Positions 7,191 to 29,293 of a stretch of DNA of 64,000 nt are shown here, one piece after another. A program made the translations under genes and the position numbers. The stretch's first letter is position 1. Each line of letters opens with the position of its first letter. Origin of the DNA: Methanosarcina spelaei (GTDB taxonomy: Archaea > Halobacteriota > Methanosarcinia > Methanosarcinales > Methanosarcinaceae); NCBI RefSeq assembly GCF_002287235.1, contig NZ_LMVP01000001.1, positions 1 to 64,000 of the forward strand, written 5' to 3'. Under the pieces are notes generated by a model that was not told the DNA's origin, searched no databases, and was given only the letters and a program-made list of their open reading frames with translations.

Positions 7191-8030
<840 letters not shown>

Positions 8031-8057
8031 TTGCTGAGATGCAGAGGAGATGAAAAG

Positions 8058-8375
8058 ATGCAAATGATACGCGCAATCATCAGGCCAGGCATGGAAACTA
8101 AAGTTATCGAGAGCCTTGAAAAAGAGGGCTGCATTTCCCTTACAAAAATGGAAGTCTTCGGAAGAGGAAAGCAGAAAGGGATCCATATAGCAGACATCAA
8201 CTACGATGAACTGCAGAAGACCATGCTCATGCTTGTGGTAGAAGACGAACATAAGGACAAGGCTATAAAGACCATAATGGAGTCCGCCAGAACCGGAAAA
8301 TTCGGAGACGGTAGAATCTTCGTAAACCCTGTGGAAGAAGCCTATACCATAAGGACTGGAAAACCAGGACTCTAA
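8058..8375 (+). CDS. nifI1: Nitrogen-regulatory PII-like protein NifI1
   Basis: About 105 residues. NifI1 and NifI2 form a complex that binds NifDK and shuts off nitrogenase activity when ammonium appears, with 2-oxoglutarate and ATP as effectors (known from Methanococcus). The PII fold is visible: [22 protein letters not shown] at the N-terminus (split by the T-loop segment FGRGKQKG) and the C-terminal signature [22 protein letters not shown]. The codons from 8031 are open, but GAGGAGA at 8044-8050 favours ATG 8058. It sits between nifH and nifI2, as in all archaeal nif operons. Confidence 0.93.
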
Positions 8376-8400
8376 AGCCGGATTTTCGGAGGAAAATCCA

Positions 8401-8778
8401 ATGAAAGAGATTACTGCAATTATCAGGATGAATAAAGTCCAGAAAACTAAGGATGTCCTGCTTGAATGCGGCTTTCCTTCGTTTACTGTAAGAAGGGTTA
8501 TGGGCCGCGGGAAACAAAGAGGGCTCTGCTTTGAATTTAATCCACCTCTGCCAGACCCGGAAAAGGAAGCTGAGACCTGTATTCGTTTCATTCCAAAACG
8601 CATGTTCACCATCGTTGTGGATGACGAAAACGTAAATGATGTGGTCCAGAAAATCATAGAGGTTAACCAGACCGGAAATGCAGGAGATGGAAAGATTTTC
8701 GTGTCAAACGTTACCGAAGCAATCCGCATCCGAACTGGAGAAAGCGGAGAGGCGACCGTAAATAAGGAGTTGATGTAA
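8401..8778 (+). CDS. nifI2: Nitrogen-regulatory PII-like protein NifI2
   Basis: 125 residues. It is the partner of NifI1 in the ammonium switch-off of nitrogenase. The PII fold is recognisable in [20 protein letters not shown], the T-loop entry [10 protein letters not shown] and the C-terminal [21 protein letters not shown]. The T-loop region is longer than in NifI1 (residues about 45-70), typical of NifI2. Its stop codon overlaps the nifD start (TAATG at 8776-8780), so translation of the two is probably coupled, which would keep the regulator and its target in balance. Confidence 0.93.
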
Positions 8779-10376
8779 TGGGAGCAGAAATAGATTCTGG
8801 AATTGAAGACAAACAAAACCTTGTGGATAACATGCTGAAGGTGCTCCCGGAAAAAGCTGCAAGGAACAGGAGAAAACACATAGTTGTCAGGGACTGTTCC
8901 ACCGAACAGCACATAGAAGCTGACGATAAGGTAATTCCCGGCATCCTCACAAATCGCGGTTGTGCCTTTGCAGGTACCAAGGGTGTGGTCTTCGGGCCGA
9001 TCAAAGACATGGTCCACCTGGTTCACGGCCCCATAGGCTGTGCTTACTTCACCTGGGGGACCAGGCGAAACCTTGCAAAGGCAGAGGAAGGCGGAGACAA
9101 CTTCATGAATTACTGCGTATGCACTGATATGAAGGAAACCGATATCGTCTTTGGGGGAGAGAAGAAGCTCAAAAAAGCTATTGACGAAGTTGTGAAAATT
9201 TTCAGCCCCGAAGCTATCACCATCTGCGCAACCTGCCCCGTAGGGCTTATCGGAGACGACATCGAAGCTGTTGCCAGAGAAGCTGAAAACGAACACGGGA
9301 TCAAGATAATCCCCGCCCGGTGCGAAGGGTACAGGGGAGTTAGCCAGTCGGCAGGCCACCACATCGCGAGCAATGCCCTGATGGAACACCTGATTGGGAC
9401 CGAAGAACTTGAAAATCCAACACCTTTTGACATCAACATCTTCGGAGAATACAATATAGGAGGGGACCTCTGGGAGATCCAGCCGATCTTTGAAAAAATC
9501 GGGTACAGAATTGTCTCTAGTTTGACCGGAGACGGTTCATTCCATAAAATTTCACAGGCTCACAGAGCAAAGCTCAGCATACTGCTCTGCCACCGCTCTA
9601 TAAACTACACGAACCGCATGATGGAAGAGAAGTACGGGATCCCGTGGTTGAAGGTCAATTACATAGGCACCAAAGGTACTGAAAAATCCCTTAGAAAGAT
9701 GGCAGAATATTTTGACGATCCGGAACTTACAAGAAAAACTGAAGAAACCATTGCCGAAGAAAAAGCAAAGTATAAAGATGAAATCGAGAGGTACAGACAG
9801 AAACTCCAGGGAAAAACCGCCTTTATCTATTCCGGAGGCTCCAGGAGTCACCACTATGAGAACCTCTTCGAAGAACTCGGCATGAAAGTGATTGTTGCAG
9901 GTTATCAGTTCGCCCACAGAGACGACTACGAAGGCAGGCAGATCATACCCCAGATTAAGGAGAATGCTCTTGGCTCAATGCTTGAGGACGTGCACTACGA
10001 AAGGGACGAAAATATCAAACCTGCAGTCAGTCCGGAAAGGATTGAAGAGCTGAAAACGAAAATCGGGCTTATGGAATATGAGGGTCTTTTCCCGGATGCG
10101 GGAGACGGCACCATTGTTATCGATGATCTTAACCATCACGAGACTGAGGTCCTTGTAAAGACCCTTAAACCTGATATCTTCTGCTCCGGGATCAAGGATA
10201 AGTACTGGGCTCAGAAGCTTGGAGTTCCGTCAAGGCAGATCCATTCGTACGATTACAGTGGAAGGTATACAGGCTTTTCCGGAGTTTTGAACTTCGCACG
10301 GGACATTGATATGGCCCTGCACAGCCCGACCTGGAGGTTCATACGCCCTCCCTGGAAAGCTGCAGAAGTGGACTGA
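8778..10376 (+). CDS. nifD: Nitrogenase molybdenum-iron protein alpha chain
   Basis: 532 residues. It is the catalytic alpha subunit that carries the FeMo-cofactor. P-cluster cysteines are present at Cys62 (NRGCAFAG), Cys88 (GPIGCAYFTWG) and Cys153 (CATCPVGLIGDD). Cofactor ligands are Cys271 (LLCHRSINY) and His489 (RQIHSYDYSG); SQSAGHH (around 189-195) matches the conserved Gln/His near the cofactor. An insertion of about 50 residues near residue 380-430 is usual for archaeal and clostridial NifD. All metal ligands are intact, so the protein should be active. The start overlaps nifI2, and nifK follows after 26 bp. Confidence 0.97.
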   Translation: MGAEIDSGIEDKQNLVDNMLKVLPEKAARNRRKHIVVRDCSTEQHIEADDKVIPGILTNRGCAFAGTKGVVFGPIKDMVHLVHGPIGCAYFTWGTRRNLAKAEEGGDNFMNYCVCTDMKETDIVFGGEKKLKKAIDEVVKIFSPEAITICATCPVGLIGDDIEAVAREAENEHGIKIIPARCEGYRGVSQSAGHHIASNALMEHLIGTEELENPTPFDINIFGEYNIGGDLWEIQPIFEKIGYRIVSSLTGDGSFHKISQAHRAKLSILLCHRSINYTNRMMEEKYGIPWLKVNYIGTKGTEKSLRKMAEYFDDPELTRKTEETIAEEKAKYKDEIERYRQKLQGKTAFIYSGGSRSHHYENLFEELGMKVIVAGYQFAHRDDYEGRQIIPQIKENALGSMLEDVHYERDENIKPAVSPERIEELKTKIGLMEYEGLFPDAGDGTIVIDDLNHHETEVLVKTLKPDIFCSGIKDKYWAQKLGVPSRQIHSYDYSGRYTGFSGVLNFARDIDMALHSPTWRFIRPPWKAAEVD

Positions 10377-10402
10377 GGGGCAAAAAGTAAGAGGTGATAA
10401 AA

Positions 10403-11773
10403 ATGCTTGACTATACTTCATGTGAAGAAGTAACCAGAGAAGCAGTAACCATTAACCCTGCAAAAATCTGCCAGCCAATAGGCGCAGTCTATGCAGCTCT
10501 TGGTGTACATAACTGCATGCCGCACAGTCATGGGTCCCAGGGATGCCTCTCTTACCTGCGTATGTGTTTAAGCAGGCACTACAGGGAAGCCGCACTGGCA
10601 ACTACCAGCAGTTTTTCTGAAGGAACTGCAGTCTTTGGAGGAGCTGCAAACCTTAAGGAAGCTCTCGTAAACCTGACTGAAATATACAAACCCGAAGTAA
10701 TTGCTATTCACACTACCTGCGTAGCCGAAACAATAGGTGACGACGTAGGGGTTATCTTAGAAGATGTAAAGGATCAAGAACTCATTGACCCTTCTATTAA
10801 GATCTGTGCAGCATCTACCCCCAGTTACGTGGGTACCCATATTACGGGTTATGACAACATGGTAAAGGCTTTTGTAACTACCTTTGCCAAAAAGAGCAAA
10901 CCAAACGGGAAACTGAACCTCATTCCAGGGTTTGTAGAACCTGGGGACATACGGGAAATGAAACGCATACTCTCAATTATGGGAATTTCCAGCATTGTGT
11001 TTCCCGATACAACCGACGTATTTGACGCTCCCCTTACCGGAGAACCCGAGATGTATCCAAAAGGTGGGACTCCGGTAGGAGACATAGAGGATTCCGCAAA
11101 CTCAGTTGGGACAATTGCTCTCTGCAGGATGGCAGGAGGCTCGGCTGCAAAGATCCTTGAAAACCGCTACAAAGTCCCTGCAAAAATAGGGCCCGTTCCT
11201 ATAGGAATCAAGAACACCGACCGTTTCGTAATGAATGCGGCAAAACTTGCTAATGTGGCAATCCCTCCCGAAATTGAAGATGAGAGGGGTAGGCTTGTGG
11301 ATATGATGACTGATGCTCATCCCCACTACCATGGGAAAAGAGTAGCCATTTACGGGGATCCAGATATTCTTACAGGTCTGACCAGTCTTGTGATGGAAAT
11401 GGGTATGGAACCTGCTGTAGTACTTACAGGAACTCAGAATTCGGAATTTGAAAAAGAGGTCGAAGAACTCATAGGTCCTGAGTACCCTGAGGCTGATGTA
11501 ATTTCCGGAGGAGACCTGTTTACCCTTCACCAGATAATCAAGAGAAAGCCTGTGGATCTCCTTATCGGCAATACCTACGGGAAATTCATAGCAAGGGCAG
11601 AGGATGTGCCTCTGGTCAGGGTAGGTTTCCCGATTATGGACAGGGCAAACCTGCACTACTTCCCGATCATGGGATACGCGGGAGCTGCAAGACTGGTAGA
11701 GCGTATAGGAAATACCCTGCTTGATAGGAAAGACAGGGATGCTCCGGACTGGCTGCTTGAAACCATCCAGTAA
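10403..11773 (+). CDS. nifK: Nitrogenase molybdenum-iron protein beta chain
   Basis: 456 residues. It is the beta subunit that shares the P-cluster with NifD. Its cluster cysteines are Cys23 (AKICQPIGA), Cys48 (GSQGCLSYLR) and Cys106 (HTTCVAETIGDD). The serine region TPSYVGTHITGYDNM also matches. It lacks the N-terminal extension of about 50 residues found in proteobacterial NifK, as expected for this lineage. GAGGTGAT (10391-10398) is the ribosome-binding site for ATG 10403; a GTG at 10394 lies within it and is unlikely to be used. 83 bp separate it from nifE. Confidence 0.97.
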   Translation: MLDYTSCEEVTREAVTINPAKICQPIGAVYAALGVHNCMPHSHGSQGCLSYLRMCLSRHYREAALATTSSFSEGTAVFGGAANLKEALVNLTEIYKPEVIAIHTTCVAETIGDDVGVILEDVKDQELIDPSIKICAASTPSYVGTHITGYDNMVKAFVTTFAKKSKPNGKLNLIPGFVEPGDIREMKRILSIMGISSIVFPDTTDVFDAPLTGEPEMYPKGGTPVGDIEDSANSVGTIALCRMAGGSAAKILENRYKVPAKIGPVPIGIKNTDRFVMNAAKLANVAIPPEIEDERGRLVDMMTDAHPHYHGKRVAIYGDPDILTGLTSLVMEMGMEPAVVLTGTQNSEFEKEVEELIGPEYPEADVISGGDLFTLHQIIKRKPVDLLIGNTYGKFIARAEDVPLVRVGFPIMDRANLHYFPIMGYAGAARLVERIGNTLLDRKDRDAPDWLLETIQ

Positions 11774-11856
11774 ATCATATTTTCAAAAAATTAGCAGAAT
11801 AACTGGTAAACTGCCGCTGCAAACCTGAAAAACCATAGCAGAGGGGAGTGAAGGAA

Positions 11857-13461
11857 ATGAAAGAGAAAATTGGAATAGTGGATACTCTAGAAGAAAGGAA
11901 GCCATATATTACCAGAAAACAGGAAAACGGACAGGAAATTCCTCTTGCCTGCGATAATAACTCTCTTGCAGGAGCTATTAGCCAGCGAGCCTGTGTTTAT
12001 TCGGGGGCCAGGGTTGTCTTAAACCCTGTAACTGATGCCATTCACCTGGTCCACGGTCCAATTGGCTGTGCAGGCTATACCTGGGATATAAGAGGTGCAA
12101 AATCCAGCGGGATTGAAACTAACCGCACCAGCTTCAGTACGGATATGAAAGAACTCGATGTGGTCTTCGGAGGAGAGACGAAACTCTCAAGCGCAATCGA
12201 CGAACTGGTTGGACTCTACCATCCTCCTGTTGTTTTTGTATATTCCACATGCATTGTCGGAATTATAGGTGACGACCTTGAGTCCGTATGCAAAACTGCA
12301 AGCCAAAAGCACAACATTCCTGTAATCCCTGTAAAATCCGAAGGTTTCAAAGGCAACAAGTCCGACGGATACAAGGCTGCTTGTGATGCTTTAAAAAAGC
12401 TGATTAAAAAACCTCCGGAAGATCCAACTGCTAAAAAAGCACCCAGGTCCCCTGAAACCATAAAGCCGAAGATTAACATTTTAGGGGATTTCAATGTGGC
12501 CGGAGATGTCTGGCTCATAAAACCTCTTTTTGAACAGATGGGGATTGAGGTCATAGTCTCAATGACAGGGGACTCAACCGCAAAAACCATATCAAGAGCA
12601 GCAGAAGCTGACCTTAACCTCGTCCAGTGTAGTGGGTCCATGACCTATCTTGCAAAATGGATGCAGATAGAATATGGAATTCCCTACTTAAATGTGAGTT
12701 TCTTCGGAATTGAAGATATTTCCCTGGCTCTACGGAAAACTGCGGATTACTTTGGCTCTGAGAAGATGAAACAACATGCAGAACAAATCCTGGAAACCGA
12801 AATAAACCGTATAATGCCTGAGATTTCCAGGGTTCGAGAAAGAGTCAAAGGAAAAAAGGCTGCTATTTACATGGGAGGGCCTGCAAAAGCTCTCACGCTT
12901 ATCAAAGGCTTTGCCGAACTTGGCATGGAAGTCGTTATTATCGGGACTCAGACCGGGAAAAAAGAAGATTACGAGCAGATCAGTTATTCGGTAAGGGATG
13001 GAACGGTTATTGTTGACGATGCAAACCCCCTTGAACTTGCCGAACTGCTCGTGAAACAGAAAGCTGACCTGATGGTTGCAGGCGTAAAGGAGAGATTCAT
13101 TGCATACAAGCTTGGCATTGCTTTCTGTGACTTCAACCACGACAGGGTGGTGGAGTTCGAAGGTTTTGATGGCTTTGTAAACTTTGTGCAGGAGGTGGAT
13201 GCTTCCATCAGCAGCCCTGTATGGAAAGCTGTCAGGCAGCGGGCACTGATACCCGAAGCAGTGGAACCGGAGAATAAATCAGGTAAGATCGAAAAAGCGG
13301 CAGTAGCAGCAGAATCGAAAAAGAAATCAGTCAAAATCAAAAAAGCGGTAGTAAAAGAAAGGATTTCCGAGGAAAATCATGCAACTGAATGTAAAGGTAT
13401 ACACCTGAAACCTAAATTTTTGCACCAGAAATCCGAGGCTGCAGTTGAAAGTCAGGTATGA
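11857..13461 (+). CDS. nifE: Nitrogenase cofactor scaffold NifE, with basic C-terminal tail
   Basis: About 534 residues. NifEN receives the NifB product and matures it into FeMo-cofactor. The NifD-like core has the cluster cysteines in RACVYSGA, GPIGCAGYTWD and STCIVGIIGDD. The core ends at the usual SPVWKAVRQR. It is followed by an extra tail of about 70 residues rich in Lys, Glu and Ala (from IPEAVEPEN to the stop), not part of the NifE fold. A short Lys/Pro-rich insertion (KKPPEDPTAKKAP, about residue 190) is also unusual. GAGGGGAGTGA (11841-11851) sets the ATG at 11857. nifN starts 12 bp after the stop. Confidence 0.95.
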   Translation: MKEKIGIVDTLEERKPYITRKQENGQEIPLACDNNSLAGAISQRACVYSGARVVLNPVTDAIHLVHGPIGCAGYTWDIRGAKSSGIETNRTSFSTDMKELDVVFGGETKLSSAIDELVGLYHPPVVFVYSTCIVGIIGDDLESVCKTASQKHNIPVIPVKSEGFKGNKSDGYKAACDALKKLIKKPPEDPTAKKAPRSPETIKPKINILGDFNVAGDVWLIKPLFEQMGIEVIVSMTGDSTAKTISRAAEADLNLVQCSGSMTYLAKWMQIEYGIPYLNVSFFGIEDISLALRKTADYFGSEKMKQHAEQILETEINRIMPEISRVRERVKGKKAAIYMGGPAKALTLIKGFAELGMEVVIIGTQTGKKEDYEQISYSVRDGTVIVDDANPLELAELLVKQKADLMVAGVKERFIAYKLGIAFCDFNHDRVVEFEGFDGFVNFVQEVDASISSPVWKAVRQRALIPEAVEPENKSGKIEKAAVAAESKKKSVKIKKAVVKERISEENHATECKGIHLKPKFLHQKSEAAVESQV

Positions 13462-13473
13462 GGAGGTATTGAG

Positions 13474-14904
13474 ATGACGAAAAGAAACTATACAACTGTG
13501 AACCCCTGTGTTATGTGCCAGCCCATGGGAAGTGCCCTTGCTTTTAAGGGAATTGAGAATACTATGGTTCTCTACCATGGTTCTCAGGGCTGCAGTACCT
13601 ATATGCGTCTGCATCTTGCCCACCACTTCAGGGAACCTGTGGATATTGCATCAAGTTCACTCAGTGAAAAAGGAGCAGTATACGGAGGCAGGGAAAACCT
13701 GAAAAAAGGACTGAGAAATGTAATTAACAGATATAACCCGAAAGTAATCGGAGTTGCTACGACCTGCCTTGCCGAAACAATTGGGGACGATGTGCCTGCC
13801 ATAGTCCGTGAGTTCAAAGAAGAGGAAGGAATCGGAGATGACCTTGAGAAAGATATTATAATTGTTCCGGTTTCCACTCCCAGCTATGGGGAAAGCCATG
13901 TAAGCGGATATATAAAAGCCCTGGATGCGATTGTCAGGACATTTGCGGAAAAACCTGGAGACGAGAGCGCCGAAAAATTCCCGAATGAAAAACTTAACGT
14001 CATCCCTGTTGAGAGCCTCTCTCCTGCCGATGTACGCGAACTTAAAGAGGTCTTTGAGCTTATGGCCGGAGGTTATATTTTCCTGCCTGATATTTCCGAA
14101 ACCTTTGATGCTCCGCTAAGGGAAGATCTACCAAAAATTGCGCAGGGTGGGACCTCACTTTCCGAAATTGCTGACATGCCAAACAGTCAGGCAAGCTTGG
14201 GCCTGGGTATAGTTAGTAAGAACTTAGCAGTTAAATATCTGGAAGAATCACACGATGTGCCCGGTTCTAGTGTTCCAATCCCAATTGGGCTTTCAAATAC
14301 TGACAGTTTCTTCACTGAGCTGGTCAAAATTCTAGGCTGTCCGATTCCTGTAAAATACCTGCAAGAAAGGGGCAGGCTCCTTGATGCTATGGTTGATGTG
14401 CACAAGTACCTGTATGGGGTAAAAGCTGCGATTTACGGAGATCCTGATTTTGTATTTAGCCTTACAACTTTCATGCTGGAACTCGGAATGAACCCGGTTC
14501 TGATAGCTACAGGAAGTAAAAGCAGGGATTTTGAAGCAAAAATCAGGCAAATAGTTGAAAAAATAAACCCTGAACTCGAACCTCTGGTTCTGAATGGAAT
14601 TGATTTTGACACTCTTAACGATGCAGTCAGCCAATGTAACCCGGAAATCCTGATAGGAAATTCCAATGGGAGATATATTGCAAAAGCCCGGAACATCCCT
14701 CTTGTAAGGGTCGGCCTGCCAATACATGACAGAGTTGGTGCACAGCGCATTCTTACTGTAGGATATAGGGGAGCTATGGAATTCCTGGATAGAATCACTA
14801 ATGCAATTCTGGAAGCTACCGATACTTTCACCGCACCGGTACAGGCAGAATCGGCAGCATATGCCGGAAAGGGAAATGAGGAGTGTGTGGAAGGAATGCG
14901 ATGA
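13474..14904 (+). CDS. nifN: Nitrogenase cofactor scaffold NifN
   Basis: 476 residues. It is the NifK-like partner of NifE in FeMo-cofactor assembly. NifK-like elements are seen: NPCVMCQPMGSALAF, YHGSQGCSTYMRLHLAHHF, TTCLAETIGDDVPAI and TPSYGESHVSGYIKAL. A strong AGGAGGT (13460-13466) precedes ATG 13474. It is the last gene of the operon. nifB is not adjacent but lies at 59546. A short hairpin, GTGATT-CTGT-AATCAC (14917-14932), lies just after the stop. Confidence 0.95.
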   Translation: MTKRNYTTVNPCVMCQPMGSALAFKGIENTMVLYHGSQGCSTYMRLHLAHHFREPVDIASSSLSEKGAVYGGRENLKKGLRNVINRYNPKVIGVATTCLAETIGDDVPAIVREFKEEEGIGDDLEKDIIIVPVSTPSYGESHVSGYIKALDAIVRTFAEKPGDESAEKFPNEKLNVIPVESLSPADVRELKEVFELMAGGYIFLPDISETFDAPLREDLPKIAQGGTSLSEIADMPNSQASLGLGIVSKNLAVKYLEESHDVPGSSVPIPIGLSNTDSFFTELVKILGCPIPVKYLQERGRLLDAMVDVHKYLYGVKAAIYGDPDFVFSLTTFMLELGMNPVLIATGSKSRDFEAKIRQIVEKINPELEPLVLNGIDFDTLNDAVSQCNPEILIGNSNGRYIAKARNIPLVRVGLPIHDRVGAQRILTVGYRGAMEFLDRITNAILEATDTFTAPVQAESAAYAGKGNEECVEGMR

Positions 14905-15426: not shown

Positions 15427-16007
15427 GAAAAAAGAAGAGCTAAATCTCCTTCATTTTAATGGCGAGATACAGCCCGTAAACTTCAACAAAATGATAAATC
15501 TAATATTTTTATATCTCAATTAGCCAAAACAGTTTTACGCAGGCGCATGCACAATTAACAGTAAGTTCCCATTCTTCAAACTCTTTAATTGATTACACCA
15601 ATATAGTCAAAATTGGATAATTTATAAACAAAAAAGATTATATTTATTTTTCATTAACGTAAATAAGACTTATGTATCCTAAAATCAAGTAATCTCTTCT
15701 TTTATATGTATATTTGAATATGAGTTGAGGCATAATACTCAAATAAATAATTTATGGCCAAATCATTAAACAATAAAAATATTGGAAAGTAATCCCGACT
15801 CAAAATCCGCTTGAAAATTGCATTGTTAGAGAGAGTGGACATAAAACTTATAAGGAGTTAAGAAAGAGAAGTTTATGGAGTTTTGAAGTGCTTCCCAATG
15901 CCACCAGAACTCCATAAAACACGCCCTATGAGGCAGTTATCATGATTAGCTGTGCGAATATTTAAGCTTGCCTGATTCTGCCTCCTGGGATAATAAGGAG
16001 GATAAAT
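15427..16007 (+). repeat. Long duplicated upstream region, copy A
   Basis: This about 575-bp stretch is nearly identical to 18103-18687. It carries a candidate TATA box TTTATAAAC (15621-15629), so the transcript would have a leader of about 350 nt. The last part is the conserved RNA element at 15871-16001. Parts of the same region recur at 23080-23154 and 24230-24365, and the 3' part recurs in diverged form before 20535. Confidence 0.85.
15871..16001 (+). promoter_or_regulatory. Conserved structured leader with alternative anti-Shine-Dalgarno helices, copy A
   Basis: First helix: TTTATGGAGTT (15872-15882) with AACTCCATAAA (15908-15918). Second helix: GAGGCAG (15930-15936) with CTGCCTC (15978-15984), enclosing CAGTTA/TAGCTG (15934-15939/15947-15952). 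Alternative helix: CCTCCT (15981-15986) with AGGAGG (15996-16001), the ribosome-binding site of the gene at 16008. The last two are mutually exclusive. Positions 15927-15986 are identical to the otherwise diverged copy before 20535. No known riboswitch class is recognised. Confidence 0.6.
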
Positions 16008-17129
16008 ATGAAGTGTAATAAAAGTGGAACAGGCATATTTTTGTTAGTAATGCTACTGGCTAGTATTGCGTTGATACCAGCTGCAAGTGCACAAGAAAAT
16101 GCGACTAAAAAGGATCTTTCCTTTGGTCCAGAAACTCTTGATGAACTGAAAAAGGATACGAATTTTATTGCTGCATATGGAAGTATACCAGCTTTCGAAA
16201 CTTCGGAAGAGAGACAACAGTGGCTTGATAAGCTTAACAAAACATATACTAAAGCTAATAAAAATTATGATAAGGAAATATCAAAGCATTTCTATCCAAA
16301 TGGTTCTGTTATAGGTTATGGTTATACTATTGATGGCGCTCTTAAGGTTGTAATCGAAAAAGGACAAGAACTGGATAAAACCAAAGAAAATGAAATCTAT
16401 AATCTATTTTCTAAATATGGACAAGAAATTGGCGTAAAGAATATTCCACTAGTAATTTCATATGGAGATTTTCCTGTACCAACCAGTCGTACTAGCTCAT
16501 GGGTTTCCTATGGATTAATTGGAGGCATAAAAATAGTTTCAGACGGTAATGGTTATTCTGCGACGTCAACTCTTGGTTTCGCTGCAAGAACCGATAGTGG
16601 AACCAAAGGTTTTGTTATTGCTGAGCATGCTGCACCATTTATTGGGAGTAGTGTATATCAACCCACTGCATCGAGTGCCAATTTAGTAGGAAGAGTAGCC
16701 AAATATAGTAACACTCGTGCAGACGCCTCATGGGTTCCTTGTTCTAATGTTAAACCAGTGATATATGATTATGATACTGATCATACAAGAAATGTAGTAT
16801 CATATGGAGATCCCGAGGTAGGAAACATGGTTTTTAAATCGGGTATAACAACAGGAAAAACAAATGGATATGTTACTGAGATCGGAACATACAGGTACGA
16901 TTCCGGTGTTGGACGAACTTTATATAATCAATGTATTGCAGCATATAGGTGCGACGGTGGAGATAGCGGTTCCCCTGTATATATTTTAAGTGGTCCTACC
17001 GGTGCTAAGATTGTGGGAATCCACTGGGGAGGAGTGGGAACACGTTCTTCAAATGGCTACTCGACTTCGATATTTTCCCCAGTTTCTGGTATACACAATG
17101 ATTTAGGTGTATATCCTCTTAAAACATAA
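16008..17129 (+). CDS. Secreted S1-type (streptogrisin-like) serine protease with prodomain
   Basis: 373 residues. A signal peptide (residues 1-28, ending PAASAQ) is followed by a prodomain (about 37-155, containing FGPETLDELKKDTNFIAAYG) and a trypsin-fold domain (about 165-373). The catalytic triad is readable as His207 (VIAEHAAP), probably Asp239 (TRADASW) and Ser320 (CDGGDSGSPVY). It should act outside the cell as an endopeptidase after prodomain removal. The same prodomain occurs alone in the next gene. A strong AGGAGG site precedes ATG 16008 but can be sequestered by the leader. The usual HC of the bacterial motif is HA here. Substrates are unknown; nutrient scavenging or surface-protein processing are both possible. 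Confidence 0.82.
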   Translation: MKCNKSGTGIFLLVMLLASIALIPAASAQENATKKDLSFGPETLDELKKDTNFIAAYGSIPAFETSEERQQWLDKLNKTYTKANKNYDKEISKHFYPNGSVIGYGYTIDGALKVVIEKGQELDKTKENEIYNLFSKYGQEIGVKNIPLVISYGDFPVPTSRTSSWVSYGLIGGIKIVSDGNGYSATSTLGFAARTDSGTKGFVIAEHAAPFIGSSVYQPTASSANLVGRVAKYSNTRADASWVPCSNVKPVIYDYDTDHTRNVVSYGDPEVGNMVFKSGITTGKTNGYVTEIGTYRYDSGVGRTLYNQCIAAYRCDGGDSGSPVYILSGPTGAKIVGIHWGGVGTRSSNGYSTSIFSPVSGIHNDLGVYPLKT

Positions 17130-17288
17130 ACGTGCAGTTAGAAAACTTTGTTAGTACCGTTCACTTTTGAAAAAATGCAACATAATAACATAATATGCGT
17201 TATTCAAAGTTGATCCATACTAACTATTCCTTTATTTTTAATAAAGTCTAGTCATATTCAAAGAAATATTGAATTAAGAGGAAGCTAC

Positions 17289-18032
17289 ATGGGCTTAAAA
17301 ATATCATATATTCTATTATGTGTTCTTTTAGTAAATATTTTAGGGAACTGTGTTTCAGGCTCTTGTTCCCAAAACGGAGATGGCATTATGGAAAATTCAA
17401 GTAACAATAATTCTGAGAACGCAGATAACACTTCACAACGTTTACCACTTACCTTTGGTCCGGAAACTCTTGATAAACTGAAAAAGGATACGAATTTTAT
17501 TGCTGCATATGGAAGTATACCAGCTTTCGAAACTTCGGAAGAGAGAGACCAATGGATTGATACTCTTGGCAAAATAATGGAGGAAATCAATGCAAATTTT
17601 GACAATGAAATGTCAAAGTATTCCTATCCAAATGGTCCAGTAACAGGATGTGGTGTAACCATTGATGGTGTTCTAAAGGTAGGGATCAACAAGAGTGAGA
17701 AAGTTGAAAAGCCTTTTATGGATGAAATATATAAGATCTTTGACTCAAAAGCAAGCCAGATGGGACTTAAGGAAGTCCCTGTGGTATTCGTGTATGAAGA
17801 TAATCCTGTGCCAAACGTTGCTACTGAAACGCCAAACTTGTCCATACCTAGAGAAAAAAATACTGGAAGACTTAATAATTCTAATGATGATTCTGAACCT
17901 AACAATGGAAATATTTCAAACATAAATAGCTCAAGTGAAAATAATTCGAGCAAAAATAACTCTACTCCAGGCTTTAGTTTACTGGGAAGCTTGATCTGTC
18001 TTTATGGAGTGTGGAAGTTCAGGAAGAAGTAA
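17289..18032 (+). CDS. Orphan protease prodomain with PGF-CTERM surface anchor
   Basis: 247 residues. A signal peptide (residues 1-25) leads to a Ser/Asn-rich linker, then a domain (about 54-175) closely matching the prodomain of the protease at 16008. Shared segments include KKDTNFIAAYGSIPAFETSE. No protease domain follows. Instead there is an Asn/Ser-rich spacer (about 185-225) and a C-terminal PGF-CTERM-type sorting signal: STPGFSLLGSLICLYGVW then basic FRKK. PGF-CTERM proteins are cleaved by an archaeosortase and linked to lipid on the cell surface. A protease prodomain displayed alone could act in trans as an inhibitor or folding helper; that is inference. ATG 17289 follows AAGAGGA. Confidence 0.75.
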   Translation: MGLKISYILLCVLLVNILGNCVSGSCSQNGDGIMENSSNNNSENADNTSQRLPLTFGPETLDKLKKDTNFIAAYGSIPAFETSEERDQWIDTLGKIMEEINANFDNEMSKYSYPNGPVTGCGVTIDGVLKVGINKSEKVEKPFMDEIYKIFDSKASQMGLKEVPVVFVYEDNPVPNVATETPNLSIPREKNTGRLNNSNDDSEPNNGNISNINSSSENNSSKNNSTPGFSLLGSLICLYGVWKFRKK

Positions 18033-18102
18033 TACAGGGCTTGGATTACCAGACAGCTAAATGACATAATATCTTTTTGCATGTTTGTTTTCAGCCTCTT
18101 GA

Positions 18103-18687
18103 GGAAAAAAGAAGGATTATTTCCCTTTATTTTAATGGCGAGATACAGCCCGTAAACTTCAACAAAACGACAAATCTAATATTTTTATATTTCAATTAGC
18201 CAAAACAGTTTTACGCAGGCGCATGCACAATTAACAGTAAGTTCCCATTCTTCAAACTCTTTAATTGATCACACCAATATAATCAAAATTGGACAATTTA
18301 TAAATAAAAAAGACGATATATATCATTCATTGACGTAAATAAGACTTATATATCCTAAAATTAGATACCCCTTTTTTTTATATGTATTTTTGAATATGAG
18401 TTGAGGCATAATACTCAAATAAATAATTTATGGCCAAATCATTAAACAATAAAAATATTGGAAAGTAATCCAGACTCAAAATCCGCTTGAAAATTGCATT
18501 GTTAGAGAGAGTGGACATAAAACTTATAAGGAGTTAAGAAAGAGAAGTTTATGGAGTTTTGAAGTGCTTCCCAATGCCACCAGAACTCCATAAAACACGC
18601 CCTATGAGGCAGTTATCATGATTAGCTGTGCGAATATTTAAGCTTGCCTGATCCTGCCTCCTAGGGTGATAAACAGAGGTAAAAATA
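18103..18687 (+). repeat. Long duplicated upstream region, copy B
   Basis: Nearly identical to copy A (15427-16007). TATA candidate TTTATAAAT lies at 18297-18305. The duplication places the same long leader before an unrelated coding sequence (18688), so the leader rather than the gene is what is shared. Confidence 0.85.
18547..18680 (+). promoter_or_regulatory. Conserved structured leader with alternative anti-Shine-Dalgarno helices, copy B
   Basis: Same helices as copy A. GAGGCAG (18606-18612) pairs with CTGCCTC (18654-18660). In the alternative, GCCTC (18656-18660) pairs with GAGGT (18676-18680), the ribosome-binding site of the gene at 18688. The Shine-Dalgarno sequence and spacer differ from copy A, yet the sequestering pairing is kept. 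Confidence 0.6.
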
Positions 18688-19428
18688 ATGAAAATGAAGA
18701 GTATAAGAATATTGGTTTTGGCAATGCTATTGATTGGTATGGTGTTGGTGCCAGCTGTGAGTGCGCAGAAAGAAAATTCAATAACGAGTGATAAGCCTTC
18801 TGAATTGGAACAAGGTCTAATAGATGCGCTGAATTCTAATACAAAAGGTCTGTCCAAAGACGTTATGATTGCGAATTATTGTAAAGCAAACAAGGATAAA
18901 ATTTCAATACCAAAAAACGATACTGTTCCAGGCAAAGATAATTTAAGGACATATCAGCTAAAAGATGGATCAGCAATAACTTTCACCAATAAAAGTTTTT
19001 TTTACATTAGTGGCTTGAAGGAAGACGCAAATAATGAAATAGTAGCTAAAAATATTAATACAGCAGCGGGTGATTCGTATACTGGTATGCTAACAGCATA
19101 CAAGAAATTCTATAGTTATCCATTTGGCTCATTATTATTTACTATCAATGCAAAAGGATATTATAAGTATAATGGGGCTACTGTGACAGCTTATTATTAT
19201 GATTCATGGTACACTAGAGGTGTTGCACAAATCTGGCAAGTTAGTAACTGGGAAGAAGGTGGGTATAATTATGACACGCATACTCTTTCAGAAATTTATG
19301 GAAGAGGGAATTTCCATTGGGGAATTGAATACCAAGGTGTAGGCTGGGTTATTGAAGATTATCTTTGCACAGTTAAATCACAATGTGATAAAAATGGAAA
19401 CTACCAGTTTCTCTACTCCATACATTAA
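18688..19428 (+). CDS. Secreted Tyr/Trp-rich protein of unknown function
   Basis: 246 residues. The signal peptide (MKMKSIRILVLAMLLIGMVL, ending PAVSAQ) is very like those of the genes at 16008 and 20535. A charged helical part (about 27-75) is followed by a domain rich in Tyr, Trp and Gly (about 100-246) with segments such as GVAQIWQVSNWEEGGYNYD and ENYHWGIEY-like patterns; two cysteines near the end (LCTVKSQC) could form a disulfide. I recognise no family. It shares the long leader and the RNA switch with the protease gene, suggesting co-regulated secretion. The start ATG follows GAGGT. A 16-bp inverted repeat lies 33 bp after the stop. Confidence 0.7.
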   Translation: MKMKSIRILVLAMLLIGMVLVPAVSAQKENSITSDKPSELEQGLIDALNSNTKGLSKDVMIANYCKANKDKISIPKNDTVPGKDNLRTYQLKDGSAITFTNKSFFYISGLKEDANNEIVAKNINTAAGDSYTGMLTAYKKFYSYPFGSLLFTINAKGYYKYNGATVTAYYYDSWYTRGVAQIWQVSNWEEGGYNYDTHTLSEIYGRGNFHWGIEYQGVGWVIEDYLCTVKSQCDKNGNYQFLYSIH

Positions 19429-19460
19429 CGAAATAATTTTAAATCAATATCTATAAAGCA

Positions 19461-19529
19461 GATTTCATACGACATTCTTGGTTGATACAGCACTAATGTC
19501 AAGTCAATAGCAAAATGTCGTATGAAATC
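19461..19529. repeat. Inverted repeat with 16-bp perfect arms
   Basis: GATTTCATACGACATT (19461-19476) and AATGTCGTATGAAATC (19514-19529) are perfectly complementary, separated by 37 bp. It may be a transcription-end hairpin for the gene before it or a tiny transposon remnant. No T-run follows. Confidence 0.6.
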
Positions 19530-19706
19530 ATTTGCAACTATTCCAAATCATTATATCTTTAATGATTGACGAAATGCTAGTCTTAGACTATGAAAAATGG
19601 TTCAAAATTCTTGTTATAGAGAACTTCCAAGGTTTAAATAGAGCTATAAGATGTAAAAATAAAATTCTCCAAGCTAAGAATTATTGGTATGGGTGTGGAT
19701 TATATT

Positions 19707-19916
19707 ATGATGAAAAAAAATTATATAACGTTGTTTATCACTTGCTTTGCCGTTTTTTTAATCTTGAATTTTAGGAGTTTATTTCAACTTAATTTCTCAA
19801 CTGCTATAGCAGTAATTCTTATGTCTTTGATTGAAACTCTCATTGTATATTTAATCATAATCCTCATTATACATATTGCGAATCGTTACAGTAGATTGTC
19901 TCAGAGACGGTCTTAA
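19707..19916 (+). CDS. Small two-helix membrane protein, hypothetical
   Basis: About 69 residues, with two hydrophobic segments (ITLFITCFAVFLILNF and the longer AIAVILMSLIETLIVYLIII) and a basic C-terminus (RYSRLSQRRS). GGTGTGGA lies about 9 bp before ATG 19707. The amino-acid pattern looks like a real membrane protein, but I recognise no family and nothing nearby supports it. It could equally be a fragment in this decayed island. Confidence 0.35.
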   Translation: MMKKNYITLFITCFAVFLILNFRSLFQLNFSTAIAVILMSLIETLIVYLIIILIIHIANRYSRLSQRRS

Positions 19917-20395
19917 AATCCAAGCAATTTTTACAATTGGATAAGATGCAAATCAAAGAATGCAGCTACTCCAGCCCGCTTAACCCCGATCAAAGCACGC
20001 GCATTTAATACGTGTCATGCGTGCATACAATACGCGCCCGCACGATATTATTAAAGAGGTAAGAACTACTTGGAAGAAAAGAGCTTGTGAAAATTTCTAC
20101 TTCTAAAATCCCTGAAGTTTTAAACTCTTAAAAGTTCTAATGCCAAATTTTCGCATCACGTTAACATTTTAGAATAATGTTAACTTATTAAAGCATATAT
20201 TTTTAATAAAATAACTATCATCTTTTTTTACCGATATCTTTGAATATAGTCTGGATCCACGTGACCATATAAAATACTTCCGGCCAAATTCTCTAGCTGT
20301 TAATGATCACGTAATAAGCTCATATCAAAATTAGTTCAAAAATCAATTGTTTGAGAGATTACACAGAAAAAATTTAAAGAATCAATAAAAAGGAA
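19917..20395. other. Intergenic, diverged leader region of the gene at 20535
   Basis: No gene seen. A short GC-rich patch (about 19978-20050, with CGCGC and GCGCCCGC) stands out from the A/T-rich island. GTTAACATT (20160-20168) and AATGTTAAC (20176-20184) form a hairpin. CCATATAAAATAC (20264-20276) is a TATA candidate for the downstream leader. Confidence 0.4.
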
Positions 20396-20527
20396 TTTAT
20401 GGAGTTTAAAAGTATTTCCCGATACCACCCGAACCCCATAAAACATGCCCTATGAGGCAGTTATCATGATTAGCTGTGCGAATATTTAAGCTTGCCTGAT
20501 TCTGCCTCCTAGGGAAAAATCTAGGAG
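20396..20527 (+). promoter_or_regulatory. Conserved structured leader with alternative anti-Shine-Dalgarno helices, copy C
   Basis: Upstream sequence has diverged strongly from copies A and B, but the element is kept. GAGGCAG (20454-20460) pairs with CTGCCTC (20502-20508). The alternative is CTCCTAG (20506-20512) with CTAGGAG (20521-20527), a perfect 7-bp helix over the ribosome-binding site of ATG 20535. The pairing partner differs from copy A (AGGAGG), so the pairing appears preserved while the sequence changed. Confidence 0.6.
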
Positions 20528-20534
20528 TAATAAA

Positions 20535-21779
20535 ATGATTAAGGACAAAATTAGAGTAGGAACGCTAGTTTTAGCAATACTGCTGGTTGGTATGGCATTG
20601 ATACCAGCTGTGAGTGCACAGAAAGAGGATAATTATTCTGTAACTGCAGAGAAAGCCTTTGAGCACGCAAATGCGCAAATGATCCAGTTCATAACAACTA
20701 ACATGGAAGGTGTTGGAAATTGGACAGAATAATCTATTAATCCAAAACCATTGGAAATCTATGATATAAATGGCCAAAAATTATATTATCAATTCTCAGT
20801 ATATAAAAATAGTAACCTAATGGGTAGAATCGACATCGGTGCCAATAAAACAATAGGACAATCAGTCCGACTCGTCGAACTTGATCCTAAAACCTTTAAC
20901 GCGGCTGAAGCAATGGACAAGTCAATAGAAACCGCTAAAACAAAATACCCAACTGGAGAAATCATGTCAACTAAGATGGTTGTATATGATTATCCTGAAA
21001 TAGGGGCAATGACGATAGTAAAGGACAAGATCCGAGGTGATGAACATCGGATATTTGTAGATGCCTACACCCTTGATGTGATACCAGATCAACCAGCAAC
21101 TAAAACAGAACCTGGAGTTTGGTCAATGTATGAAAAGGTAGTGAAAAATAAAATAGACGAGAATCTTAAAAAATGGCAAAATAGTGATGAACTTGTTAAA
21201 TCTATAGAACAAGCAGCAACTGATAAGGGAGTTAATATAAATGTGCCAGTCACTGAAGAAAATATTAAAAAACTTCGTGACAATACAACTATAGCATCAA
21301 AAACTGTCCAAAAAACAATCATTAGTCCTGCAAATTTTGGTTTTGCTCAAAAATTACTCAGTGTTCCTGTATATTCGCAAGCCACCACTTACTACTGTGT
21401 GCCAGCAAGTGCAGCAATGATTACTACTTACTATAAAGGAAGTAGTCCTTCCCAAAGTTCTATATATCAAATGATGAATGGGGTAGCCCCTCACGGAGTT
21501 AGTGCCTCTCGCGCATTACTCTATTATAAATCAAGTAACGGATTAAATAAGCCTAATTCATCTTCCTCGTTTGATGTTAGGTATCTTGCTGATATTCGTA
21601 ATGAAATTGACAATAATAGACCCTTGCAGAGTAATACTGCGACACATGCTAGAGCTTGCGTTGGATACCAATATAATGGTCTTCTAACTTCTTATTTGCG
21701 TCTCAATGATCCGTGGCCAATTGGTCATTCTTATTGGGAAGCATTTGGTTCTGAAAGTGATCGCATATATGTGAAGTGA
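20535..21779 (+). pseudogene. Secreted C39-like cysteine peptidase gene with in-frame TAA
   Basis: The frame is interrupted by TAA at 20730-20732 (codon 66) and otherwise runs open to 21779 (about 414 codons). Part one has a signal peptide ending PAVSAQ and the start of a helical prodomain. The rest continues the prodomain (about codons 70-270) into a C39-type domain: catalytic Cys in TTYYCVPASAAMITTYY, His in ATHARACVGYQ and the Asn/Asp of YLRLNDPWP. A restart at ATG 20751 would lack the signal peptide and stay inside the cell. TAA is not the pyrrolysine codon (TAG), so recoding is unlikely. It may be a recent mutation, since the rest looks intact. Confidence 0.75.
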
Positions 21780-26947: not shown

Positions 26948-29293
26948 ATGAAAAACTTGAAGACTTTTATAACAATATTTATTTTAACTCTTTTTTTTCT
27001 TGCGTTAAGTAGCTCTGCAGCTTTGGCAGCAAATATAGTGATTGACAAAGAGGCTGGCCCAGATGAACCGAGTTATTTTCATACACCTAATTACGAAAAC
27101 GATTCAGCTTGCATTCAGGCAGCACTGAATTACTCAAAAAGCGGAGATACGATAACTATCTATGGAGAGGATTATTATCTCCCGGAAGAAATATCTCAAA
27201 CAAATAAAAGTCTGAATATAGTAGGCAAGGGGAAAGTAACCCTTCATCTTCAAACTCCGGATAGAGGAATGGCTCAAGAAGTGAATAGAGAGATTTTCTT
27301 CAATGGATCAATTGTCGCAAATACAACTCTGTCTGCTAATGCTAAAAAAGGTTCATCTAAAATTGTATTAACCGATGTTTCCCAGGTTCGCAAGAATGAC
27401 CTGGTTAAGATCTGGAAAAACGTTCAGTGGTGTCCTCTGGACTATCCTGATCAAATAACAGGTGAAATGTATGTTGTTAAAGGTGTAAATGGAAATGTTG
27501 TCACTTTAAATCAACCACTTCTTAGAGATTACAAATTGTCCGAGACTGTACAGGTTGAAGTATACAGGCCTATTCAAATACATATAAAAAATATAAGGAT
27601 AGAGGATACAGGCAGTTCAACGATTCATCACGGACTTGTTTTGCAATATTGTAAGGATAGTTCGGTCACAAACTCCTGGCTCAATAACAGTGGATTTGGT
27701 GATCTTTGTTTATATTCCTGTTTTAATGTGAGTGTTAATAACAATGAAATTTACAATTCACTACACGCTAACTGCGGATATGGTATAAATGTGGCTAGCG
27801 GTTCGGCTTTTATAAATATATCCAATAATCACATAGAGAACTGCAGGCATGCTATTACAGGCAATTCAGATGAACGCAAATCTTTAGATCGAGACGTTTT
27901 TATCTCCAATAATACTCTGATAGGTACTGAGGTCACTGGTGCTAATGTAGTTGATGCCCATGCCGTTGTTATTAATTTTGTCGTAACTGGAAATAAGATC
28001 TACCCACAACTTCTAAAACATTATGCATTTGCAGATGGTACGCAACAGTCTACTTTTTCTGATAATAATATCTATGGCGGATATGGAGGGATATTTAAAC
28101 GCGGCAGCTTAAACGATGGAGTACACATTTACGAAAACAACACGTTTAATGGTATGACAGGTGACATGTATAAGGGAGGAAATGGAATTGATAGCGAGCT
28201 TATAATTAGAAATAATATTCAAAACAAAGGGACTTACGGAATTGATTTTCCAAATAAAGGAAGCTTTAGGAGTATAATAATTAGTAATAACACTTTTAAA
28301 AATCTCTCCTATCAAGGAGTGAATCAGAAGTTCCTGATAGACGGGCTAAACTCGGATATTTCCAAAAATACTTTTGAAAATCTGGGACTGGAAGGAATTT
28401 ATGTAGATGGAAATTCTTTCAAAAATGGTGCTGTAAATATACAAAATAATACTTTAATAAACGTGGATACATCGAGGACCTCTTCCGGAATCCTCGTGAA
28501 AAATATTAAGAACGTTGTAATTAGCGGAAACAAGCTATTCAAAACCCCGACTGCTGTCTTCTCTGCATCCCCAACTTCAGGAAATGCTCCTCTGAAAGTC
28601 AGTTTTAAGGATAAGAGTACAGGCACACCAACTTCATGGAAATGGAGCTTTGGAGATGGAAATACTTCAACAGTTAAAAATCCTGTACACGCGTATAGTA
28701 AAGCAGGAAAGTACACTGTGAGCTTAACAGTAAAGAATGCAGTGGGCAGTAATACCGCAACAAAATCCAATTACATAAATATTGTAACTTTGACAAAACC
28801 TGTTGCTGTTTTTTTTGCATCCCCGACTTCAGGAAAAGTATCATTGACAGTAAAGTTTACTGATAAGAGTGCAAATAGTCCCACTTCCTGGAAATGGAGT
28901 TTCGGAGATGGAACGTATTCAACATCTCAGAATCCAGCGCACAAGTATACTAAAGCAGGAAAGTACACTATCAGCTTAACAGTAAAGAATGCAGTGGGCA
29001 GTAGTACAGCAACAAAATCCAGTTATATAAGTGTTGTAACTGTAACAAAACCTGTTGCTTCTTTTTCTGCATTGCCGACCACTGGAAAACATCCTTTGAA
29101 TGTGAAGTTCACTGATAAAAGCACAGGATCACCTACTTCCTGGTACTGGAATTTTGGTGATAAAAGCACTTCAACAGCCCATAATCCAACACACAAGTAT
29201 ATTAAAGCAGGAAAATACACTGTGAGCTTAACGGTAAAGAATGCTGCTGGTAGTAACACAGTAAAAAAGACCAGTTATATCGCAGTTAGGTAA
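26948..29293 (+). CDS. Secreted surface protein: parallel beta-helix plus three PKD domains
   Basis: 781 residues. The signal peptide (1-27) ends in LSSSAALAAN. Residues about 30-530 look like right-handed parallel beta-helix (PbH1) repeats, with many N-N/I-S-N-N-x-I turns such as ISNNHIENC and IIRNNIQNKG. Three PKD domains follow (about 535-615, 617-698 and 700-781), each with SWKWSFGDG- or SWYWNFGD-type and KAGKYTVSLTVKN motifs. PKD proteins are common on the Methanosarcina surface; beta-helix domains often bind or cleave polysaccharide. No anchor or S-layer domain is seen at the C-terminus. RBS AGGAGA at 26934-26939. A hairpin lies 109 bp after the stop. Confidence 0.85.
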   Translation: MKNLKTFITIFILTLFFLALSSSAALAANIVIDKEAGPDEPSYFHTPNYENDSACIQAALNYSKSGDTITIYGEDYYLPEEISQTNKSLNIVGKGKVTLHLQTPDRGMAQEVNREIFFNGSIVANTTLSANAKKGSSKIVLTDVSQVRKNDLVKIWKNVQWCPLDYPDQITGEMYVVKGVNGNVVTLNQPLLRDYKLSETVQVEVYRPIQIHIKNIRIEDTGSSTIHHGLVLQYCKDSSVTNSWLNNSGFGDLCLYSCFNVSVNNNEIYNSLHANCGYGINVASGSAFINISNNHIENCRHAITGNSDERKSLDRDVFISNNTLIGTEVTGANVVDAHAVVINFVVTGNKIYPQLLKHYAFADGTQQSTFSDNNIYGGYGGIFKRGSLNDGVHIYENNTFNGMTGDMYKGGNGIDSELIIRNNIQNKGTYGIDFPNKGSFRSIIISNNTFKNLSYQGVNQKFLIDGLNSDISKNTFENLGLEGIYVDGNSFKNGAVNIQNNTLINVDTSRTSSGILVKNIKNVVISGNKLFKTPTAVFSASPTSGNAPLKVSFKDKSTGTPTSWKWSFGDGNTSTVKNPVHAYSKAGKYTVSLTVKNAVGSNTATKSNYINIVTLTKPVAVFFASPTSGKVSLTVKFTDKSANSPTSWKWSFGDGTYSTSQNPAHKYTKAGKYTISLTVKNAVGSSTATKSSYISVVTVTKPVASFSALPTTGKHPLNVKFTDKSTGSPTSWYWNFGDKSTSTAHNPTHKYIKAGKYTVSLTVKNAAGSNTVKKTSYIAVR

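Follow-up and report, generated by a model that had tools for sequence, protein, structure and literature searches.

Why do three genes for secreted proteins in one stretch of Methanosarcina spelaei DNA carry a common leader? The stretch (64,000 nucleotides (nt) of contig NZ_LMVP01000001.1, hereafter the window) was the subject of an earlier note, which read the leaders as a translational switch of no known class. All three are present where that note had placed them, as judged from the sequence and from covariance-model placement: element A at 15870–15989 (E-value 1.5e-24), element B at 18546–18665 (2.6e-24) and element C at 20394–20513 (3.6e-25), on the forward strand, as are all window features given below. 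The family is larger than these three copies, and that the leaders constitute a real, conserved and dispersed RNA family is practically beyond doubt. To judge from its sequence, the leader appears to be a genetic switch that is new and uncharacterised, and it is likely a translational one, in which an anti-Shine-Dalgarno (anti-SD) segment is claimed either by an anti-anti-SD segment or by the Shine-Dalgarno sequence (SD) of the gene.

An alignment of 12 genomic copies gave a clear fold, composed of helices P1 to P4. P1 is a 5' hairpin, UUUAUGGAGUU ... AACUCCAUAAA, whose strands in copy A, according to the P1 pairing analysis, occupy 15872–15882 and 15908–15918. P2 is the closing helix, in which CCC-N-GAGGCA(G) pairs with (C)UGCCUC-N-GGG. 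Its 5' strand, the putative anti-anti-SD, reads CCCTATGAGGCAG in all three window copies (15924–15936 in A, 18600–18612 in B, 20448–20460 in C). The 3' strand reads CTGCCTCCTGGG in A (15978–15989), with the anti-SD CCTCCT at 15981–15986, and CTGCCTCCTAGGG, again containing the anti-SD, in B (18654–18666) and C (20502–20514). Inside P2 lie the helix P3 (GACUAAGU/ACUUAGUC in locus L014) and P4, a short AGCUU/AAGCU hairpin whose apex is conserved (AGCT...AGCT at 15948–15968 in A). The pairing of GAGGCAG with CTGCCTC described in the earlier note is real, but it is only the core of a P2 of 11–13 base pairs (bp), and the inner stems and P1 had gone undescribed. The run of identity between A and C is real as well, with a length of 64 nt (15923–15986) instead of the sixty first given. 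A 31-mer from the core occurs in the window only at the three leaders, with an expectation of 0 in shuffles. Copies A and B are also alike over most of the few hundred nt 5' of the leader; they represent a duplication, and their comparison is therefore weak evidence when taken alone.

Covariation in wider alignments had been proposed as a test of the fold, and it is seen throughout P1–P4. Among 117 distinct sequences, two-sided (compensatory) changes occur in 24 of 35 pairs, and 88.5% of cells are paired, compared with 24–53% when the partners are slid; none of 500 shuffles reaches any of five covariation measures. P1 alone has 93% of its cells paired and 8 of its 11 pairs changed on both sides. 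A broader set contains 166 double-change cells versus 68 ± 9 in shuffles. Both alignments were fitted to the model, which biases them towards the structure; the slid and shuffled controls guard against this bias, but they do not entirely eliminate the effect of relatedness. The fold is kept across the phylum despite low sequence identity. The leader is a conserved, structured element of the 5' untranslated region (UTR) with covariation, as is expected of a riboswitch.

A search of the source genome with copy A returned 20 matches at E ≤ 1, 12 of them with E < 1e-7, at identities down to 75%. The covariance model R1 finds about 20 credible copies in the window's own genome, and it has matches in 27 of 31 Methanosarcina genomes, with a maximum of 30 copies per genome, and in 58 of 101 genomes of the family, covering 9 of its 14 genera; counts at looser thresholds take in some matches on the opposite strand of hairpins. 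Recurrence within the source genome, along with hundreds of copies in other genomes, exceeds what chance would give. Two further models from wider alignments, R2 and R3, also find leaders elsewhere in the order, in families other than this one, and in five more families at the phylum level (f9, f17, f26, f27 and f28). The named records carrying the core motif are from Methanosarcina, and the order and phylum of the wider set are presumably Methanosarcinales and Halobacteriota. No match was found in 321 of the 393 sampled phylum genomes, which serve as a negative control. The element always lies in the sense orientation to the downstream gene. One genome holds seven copies within about 23 kb (L079/L080, G010:C1:1181000-1208000), mostly before related C39-like secreted proteins, which is a local expansion of the leader cassette.

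The 3' strand of P2 holds CCUCC or a variant of it and is complementary to the SD of the downstream gene itself. All the complementarities claimed for the window are present: CCTCCT with the SD AGGAGG (15996–16001, read from the sequence) in A, GCCTC with GAGGT (18676–18680) in B, where the alternative helix is the weakest of the three, and CTCCTAG with the SD region CTAGGAG (20521–20527) in C. An SD always resembles the complement of CCUCC, and the flank is therefore the informative part of the pairing. Flanks match in turn: where GG follows CTCCT, AC precedes AGGAG (29 cases), and in the same way AG is matched by CT (18) and AA by TT (8). The anti-SD forms a duplex of −11.5 kcal/mol with its own SD and of −10.1 ± 0.16 kcal/mol with permuted ones, and none of 5000 shuffles is as strong. 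When the SD is swapped with that of the nearest relative, a control for relatedness, the own pairing is better in 39 cases and worse in 19, with 7 ties (sign test p = 0.006, Wilcoxon 7e-5). The separate, distant set of genomes behaves in the same way (−10.5 versus −9.3 ± 0.24 kcal/mol; 0 of 5000 shuffles), and its pairs include GTCTCC/GGAGAC at L225, L232, L239 and L244, GTGCCTCA/TGAGGCAC at L228 and TTTGCCTCC/GGAGGCAAA at L238. The anti-SD/SD helix thus covaries as well. Furthermore, one position of P2 is mostly mismatched (A.C in 57 and U.C in 17 members, compared with G-C in 14 and A-U in 10), and the mismatch falls at a C needed by the SD helix, which fits two competing helices. Two mutually exclusive structures, likewise expected of a riboswitch, are found at the level of sequence and energy only.

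Folding computed at 37 °C gives P2 a median energy advantage of 2.1 kcal/mol over the SD helix, with an interquartile range from −0.7 to 5.1 kcal/mol; the median probability of a free SD is 0.53. In the window, P2 is favoured by 2.9 kcal/mol in A, 14.4 in B and 4.7 in C. Several points weigh against a switch. One state is predicted to dominate strongly in many members, as in B, which would be ON by the full 14.4 kcal/mol. Part of the anti-SD/SD pairing is trivial, given the likeness of every SD to the complement of CCUCC, and the pairing spans only 3–4 bp in a few members. Paralogues are related, and the swapped SD was favoured in 19 of 65 nearest-relative pairs.

Of 133 upstream regions, 95 have a TATA-like motif at positions −23 to −21 relative to the element. 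In the window it is TTATAA at 15848–15853, 22 nt 5' of element A, TTATAA at 18524–18529 before B, and the TATA-like TTTAAA at 20373–20378 before C. From this spacing, transcripts should start at P1, 5' of GAGGCAG. The earlier note had named a start downstream of GAGGCAG as evidence against the switch; the predicted starts lie upstream of it, with the TATA motif about 22 nt before the element, and at one homologous leader the start published from rapid amplification of cDNA ends (RACE) lies about 8 nt 5' of the element (PMC3510493). The promoter is kept together with the leader (about −80 to −20, for example 15790–15853 in the window), with phased A-tracts, the TATA box and a conserved block, ATTGTT, at about −48 to −43. 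This joint conservation suggests shared transcriptional control in addition.

Taken as a translational switch, the leader would be a cis-acting RNA that controls the translation of secreted-protein genes. Transcription would begin at P1 or just 5' of it. In the ON state P2-P3-P4 would be folded, with GAGGCA holding the 3' strand of P2 and the SD free; in the OFF state P2 would be open, and CCUCC with its gene-specific flanks would bind the gene's own SD and block ribosome entry. A signal, which may be a small molecule, an ion or a protein, would shift the balance at the P4 apex and possibly at the P1 loop. We infer the change in translation, the assignment of ON and OFF and the switching by a ligand or protein; the trigger itself may be a ligand, a protein or, in some members, an antisense RNA. 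No ligand is proposed, because the genes have export in common and not a metabolic pathway. The reading put forward in the earlier note is supported by these data, and those of its proposed refutations that could be run did not overturn it. More tentatively, and with the odds somewhat against it, the leaders may form a phylum-wide orphan riboswitch-like class, in which one cellular cue, such as a metabolite or the export machinery's state, sets the translation of many secreted proteins in methanogenic archaea while the anti-SD is re-tuned for each gene.

The element precedes the start codon by a median of 22–25 nt, with 5th and 95th percentiles of 17 and 26 nt in the Methanosarcinaceae set. 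With start codons chosen mechanically, a strongly hydrophobic N terminus follows the leader in 109 of 129 cases in the family, 21 of 26 in the order and 24 of 29 in the phylum. The background is 12 of 44 open reading frames (ORFs) of at least 150 residues in the window, a rough figure that includes spurious ORFs. By eye, the exceptions are mostly mis-chosen starts or broken frames. Matches at the phylum level precede proteins beginning like MNGNIGMRALSVLLAMLLVSAGVV, and they are the strongest check of the link to secretion, because the model had no gene information; the association with signal-peptide genes that the earlier note had asked about holds across the phylum. The leader marks a subset of such genes, since the window encodes further secreted or membrane proteins that have no such leader (e.g. 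the ORF at 26948). The proteins behind the leaders include M12B, S8, C39 and M10 peptidases and a transglutaminase-like protein, and 137 of them fall into 34 homology clusters, the largest with 90 members.

A published system also touches the family. At 16 of 18 strong loci of sRNA162 (RF02792), a divergent leader member lies antisense to the small RNA and overlaps its 5' end; at L247–L256 and L262–L267 the overlap includes P1. On their own strand, the leaders do not reach the cut-off of the RF02792 model; the strong matches are on the opposite strand, over P1. In M. mazei, nt 1–65 of sRNA162 bind the MM2442 leader in vitro, the RACE start of MM2442 gives a 65-nt overlap with sRNA162, and the gene has a long 5' UTR with no ribosome-binding site (RBS) found at the annotated start (PMC3510493). 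By its coordinates rather than a gene name, L247 appears to be the MM2442 locus: the element follows the RACE start by about 8 nt, and an ATG 184 nt downstream of the RACE start fits the annotated start. A TTG with the SD AGAGGT lies nearer the leader, 23 nt after the element, and is probably the true start of the MM2442-type gene in place of the annotated ATG. The MM2442 leader, the published cis target of sRNA162, would thus be an unrecognised divergent member of the family, which offers an explanation for a long 5' UTR without an RBS at the annotated start. The sRNA162 is itself the antisense partner on the other strand and not the leader, and the study described neither a family of repeated leaders nor a switch (PMC3510493).

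Other explanations have to be set against the switch. A constitutive structural leader, in which P1 and P2–P4 guard the 5' end from decay or keep the SD accessible and no second state is regulated, would agree with P2 being lower in energy than its alternative in some 70% of members, with the location of P1 at the predicted 5' end and with the long structured 5' UTRs usual in methanogens (PMC3510493, PMC5378194). It leaves unexplained, however, that the anti-SD flank tracks the gene's own SD and that a mismatch persists in P2 where it benefits the SD helix, and we consider it unlikely. Less likely again is the same switch triggered by an antisense RNA of the sRNA162 type on P1 instead of a ligand or protein. 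The antisense arrangement at the sRNA162 loci, the published binding to the MM2442 leader and weak sRNA162-like antisense matches at other members speak for it; but strong sRNA162 matches occur at few loci per genome (searched in the genus only), the leader family is far wider, and P1 belongs to neither of the competing helices.

The chance is slimmer still that the GAGG of P2 serves as the SD of an upstream ORF, the translation of which would open or close the fold. An ATG follows GAGG by 6–19 nt in 79 of 118 Methanosarcinaceae members, often opening an ORF of 7–12 codons, but the remaining 39 have no such ATG, frame and length vary, and a conserved peptide is not visible in the alignments. 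A leader-peptide attenuator was dropped as the main explanation on the same count of ATGs and the same variability. A physical sensor that works without a ligand, such as an RNA thermometer, would agree with the nearly equal predicted energies of the two states. A thermometer has no need of the conserved P4 apex, however, and the downstream genes encode exoproteins rather than heat or cold functions; we hold a sensor of this kind to be very improbable, and a thermometer fits less well than a translational switch, as does a leader-peptide model. The least probable reading is a non-regulatory cassette of promoter and leader that duplication and gene conversion have carried along with the signal-peptide portion of a multigene family. 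Common upstream promoter sequence, related-looking signal peptides in many downstream genes, the one dominant homology cluster and the short or broken frames behind many copies all favour such spreading. Copying, however, makes no compensatory changes in P1–P4 or in the anti-SD/SD pair, the leader also precedes 33 further protein clusters that include unrelated peptidase families, and the fold survives across the phylum at low sequence identity. A mobile repeat (miniature inverted-repeat transposable element or repetitive extragenic palindrome) was likewise rejected, given the fixed position and orientation to the gene and the compensatory changes.

The claim that the leader belongs to no known class is borne out by the Rfam scans. 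Rfam 15 gave no match in the window at the gathering cut-off, and when the window and 19 loci holding diverse members were scanned at lax thresholds, the leaders gave only sub-threshold antisense sRNA162 matches. A search of open-licence papers produced no description of the leader. In its working it would resemble a bacterial translational riboswitch, with two exclusive helices that share one strand and one helix that masks the SD; ligand binding is the defining feature of a riboswitch, and here no ligand is known, no Rfam riboswitch fold matches, the host is archaeal and the theme is secretion instead of metabolism. The fluoride (crcB) riboswitch, among the few classes common to bacteria and archaea (PMC2864571), is also a conserved structured leader that occurs in archaea, but it has another fold and other genes, and it gave no match at the leaders. 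In the related methanogen Methanolobus psychrophilus, long 5' UTRs with predicted RBS-masking stems have been proposed (PMC5378194); by contrast with the present leaders, these concern individual genes with temperature-selected starts, and have neither a conserved motif nor a secretion theme. Natural riboswitch-type control has very few validated cases in archaea (PMC11549558). If the switch is true, it represents an abundant class of structured leaders, reaching some 30 copies in a genome, in the genetically tractable Methanosarcina, its gene theme being secreted peptidases and other exported proteins, and the family provides a defined way into the regulation of exoproteins by methanogens.

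Some motifs within the leader were considered and rejected. A box C/D or K-turn (ATGATTA ... CTGA) was dropped since CTGA is not kept (CTGT in L008), and pairing of the P4 loop with the region of the start codon (AUAUUUA/UAAAUAU in A) since it is not kept in C or L010. A pH-sensing A+.C pair in P2 was abandoned because the mismatch varies, which makes the anti-SD constraint the better explanation.

In the window, gene A (16008–17129) encodes a secreted, serine-protease-like protein of 373 residues with a signal peptide and a GDSGSP motif; it has a match below cut-off to NCBIfam NF051463 (E-value 1.2e-4) and no match in Pfam or PDB. Gene B (18688–19428) encodes a secreted protein of unknown function, with 246 residues and no match in Pfam or NCBIfam. 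Gene C (20535–21779) encodes a secreted C39-like peptidase and may be broken in the assembly, because of an in-frame TAA at codon 66. Across the family, the frame after the leader is shorter than 80 residues in 48 of 129 cases, partly from mis-chosen starts, and many leader genes look broken (e.g. L081, L085, L091, L097 and L129), which may be due to redundant paralogues in decay, to errors in assembly or to another cause. The secreted precursors at L194 and L198 have a cysteine-rich C terminus that we take to recall halocin C8-like peptides, without NCBIfam or Pfam support. At L078, positions 11095-11194 match PYLIS_5 of Rfam, the pyrrolysine insertion sequence of a transposase, strongly (E-value 2.1e-21). 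Directly 5' of copy A, an operon-like run of genes at 7209–14904 appears by eye to be of the nitrogenase type, with an ORF at 7209 that resembles a nitrogenase iron protein and four large ORFs that resemble cofactor proteins.

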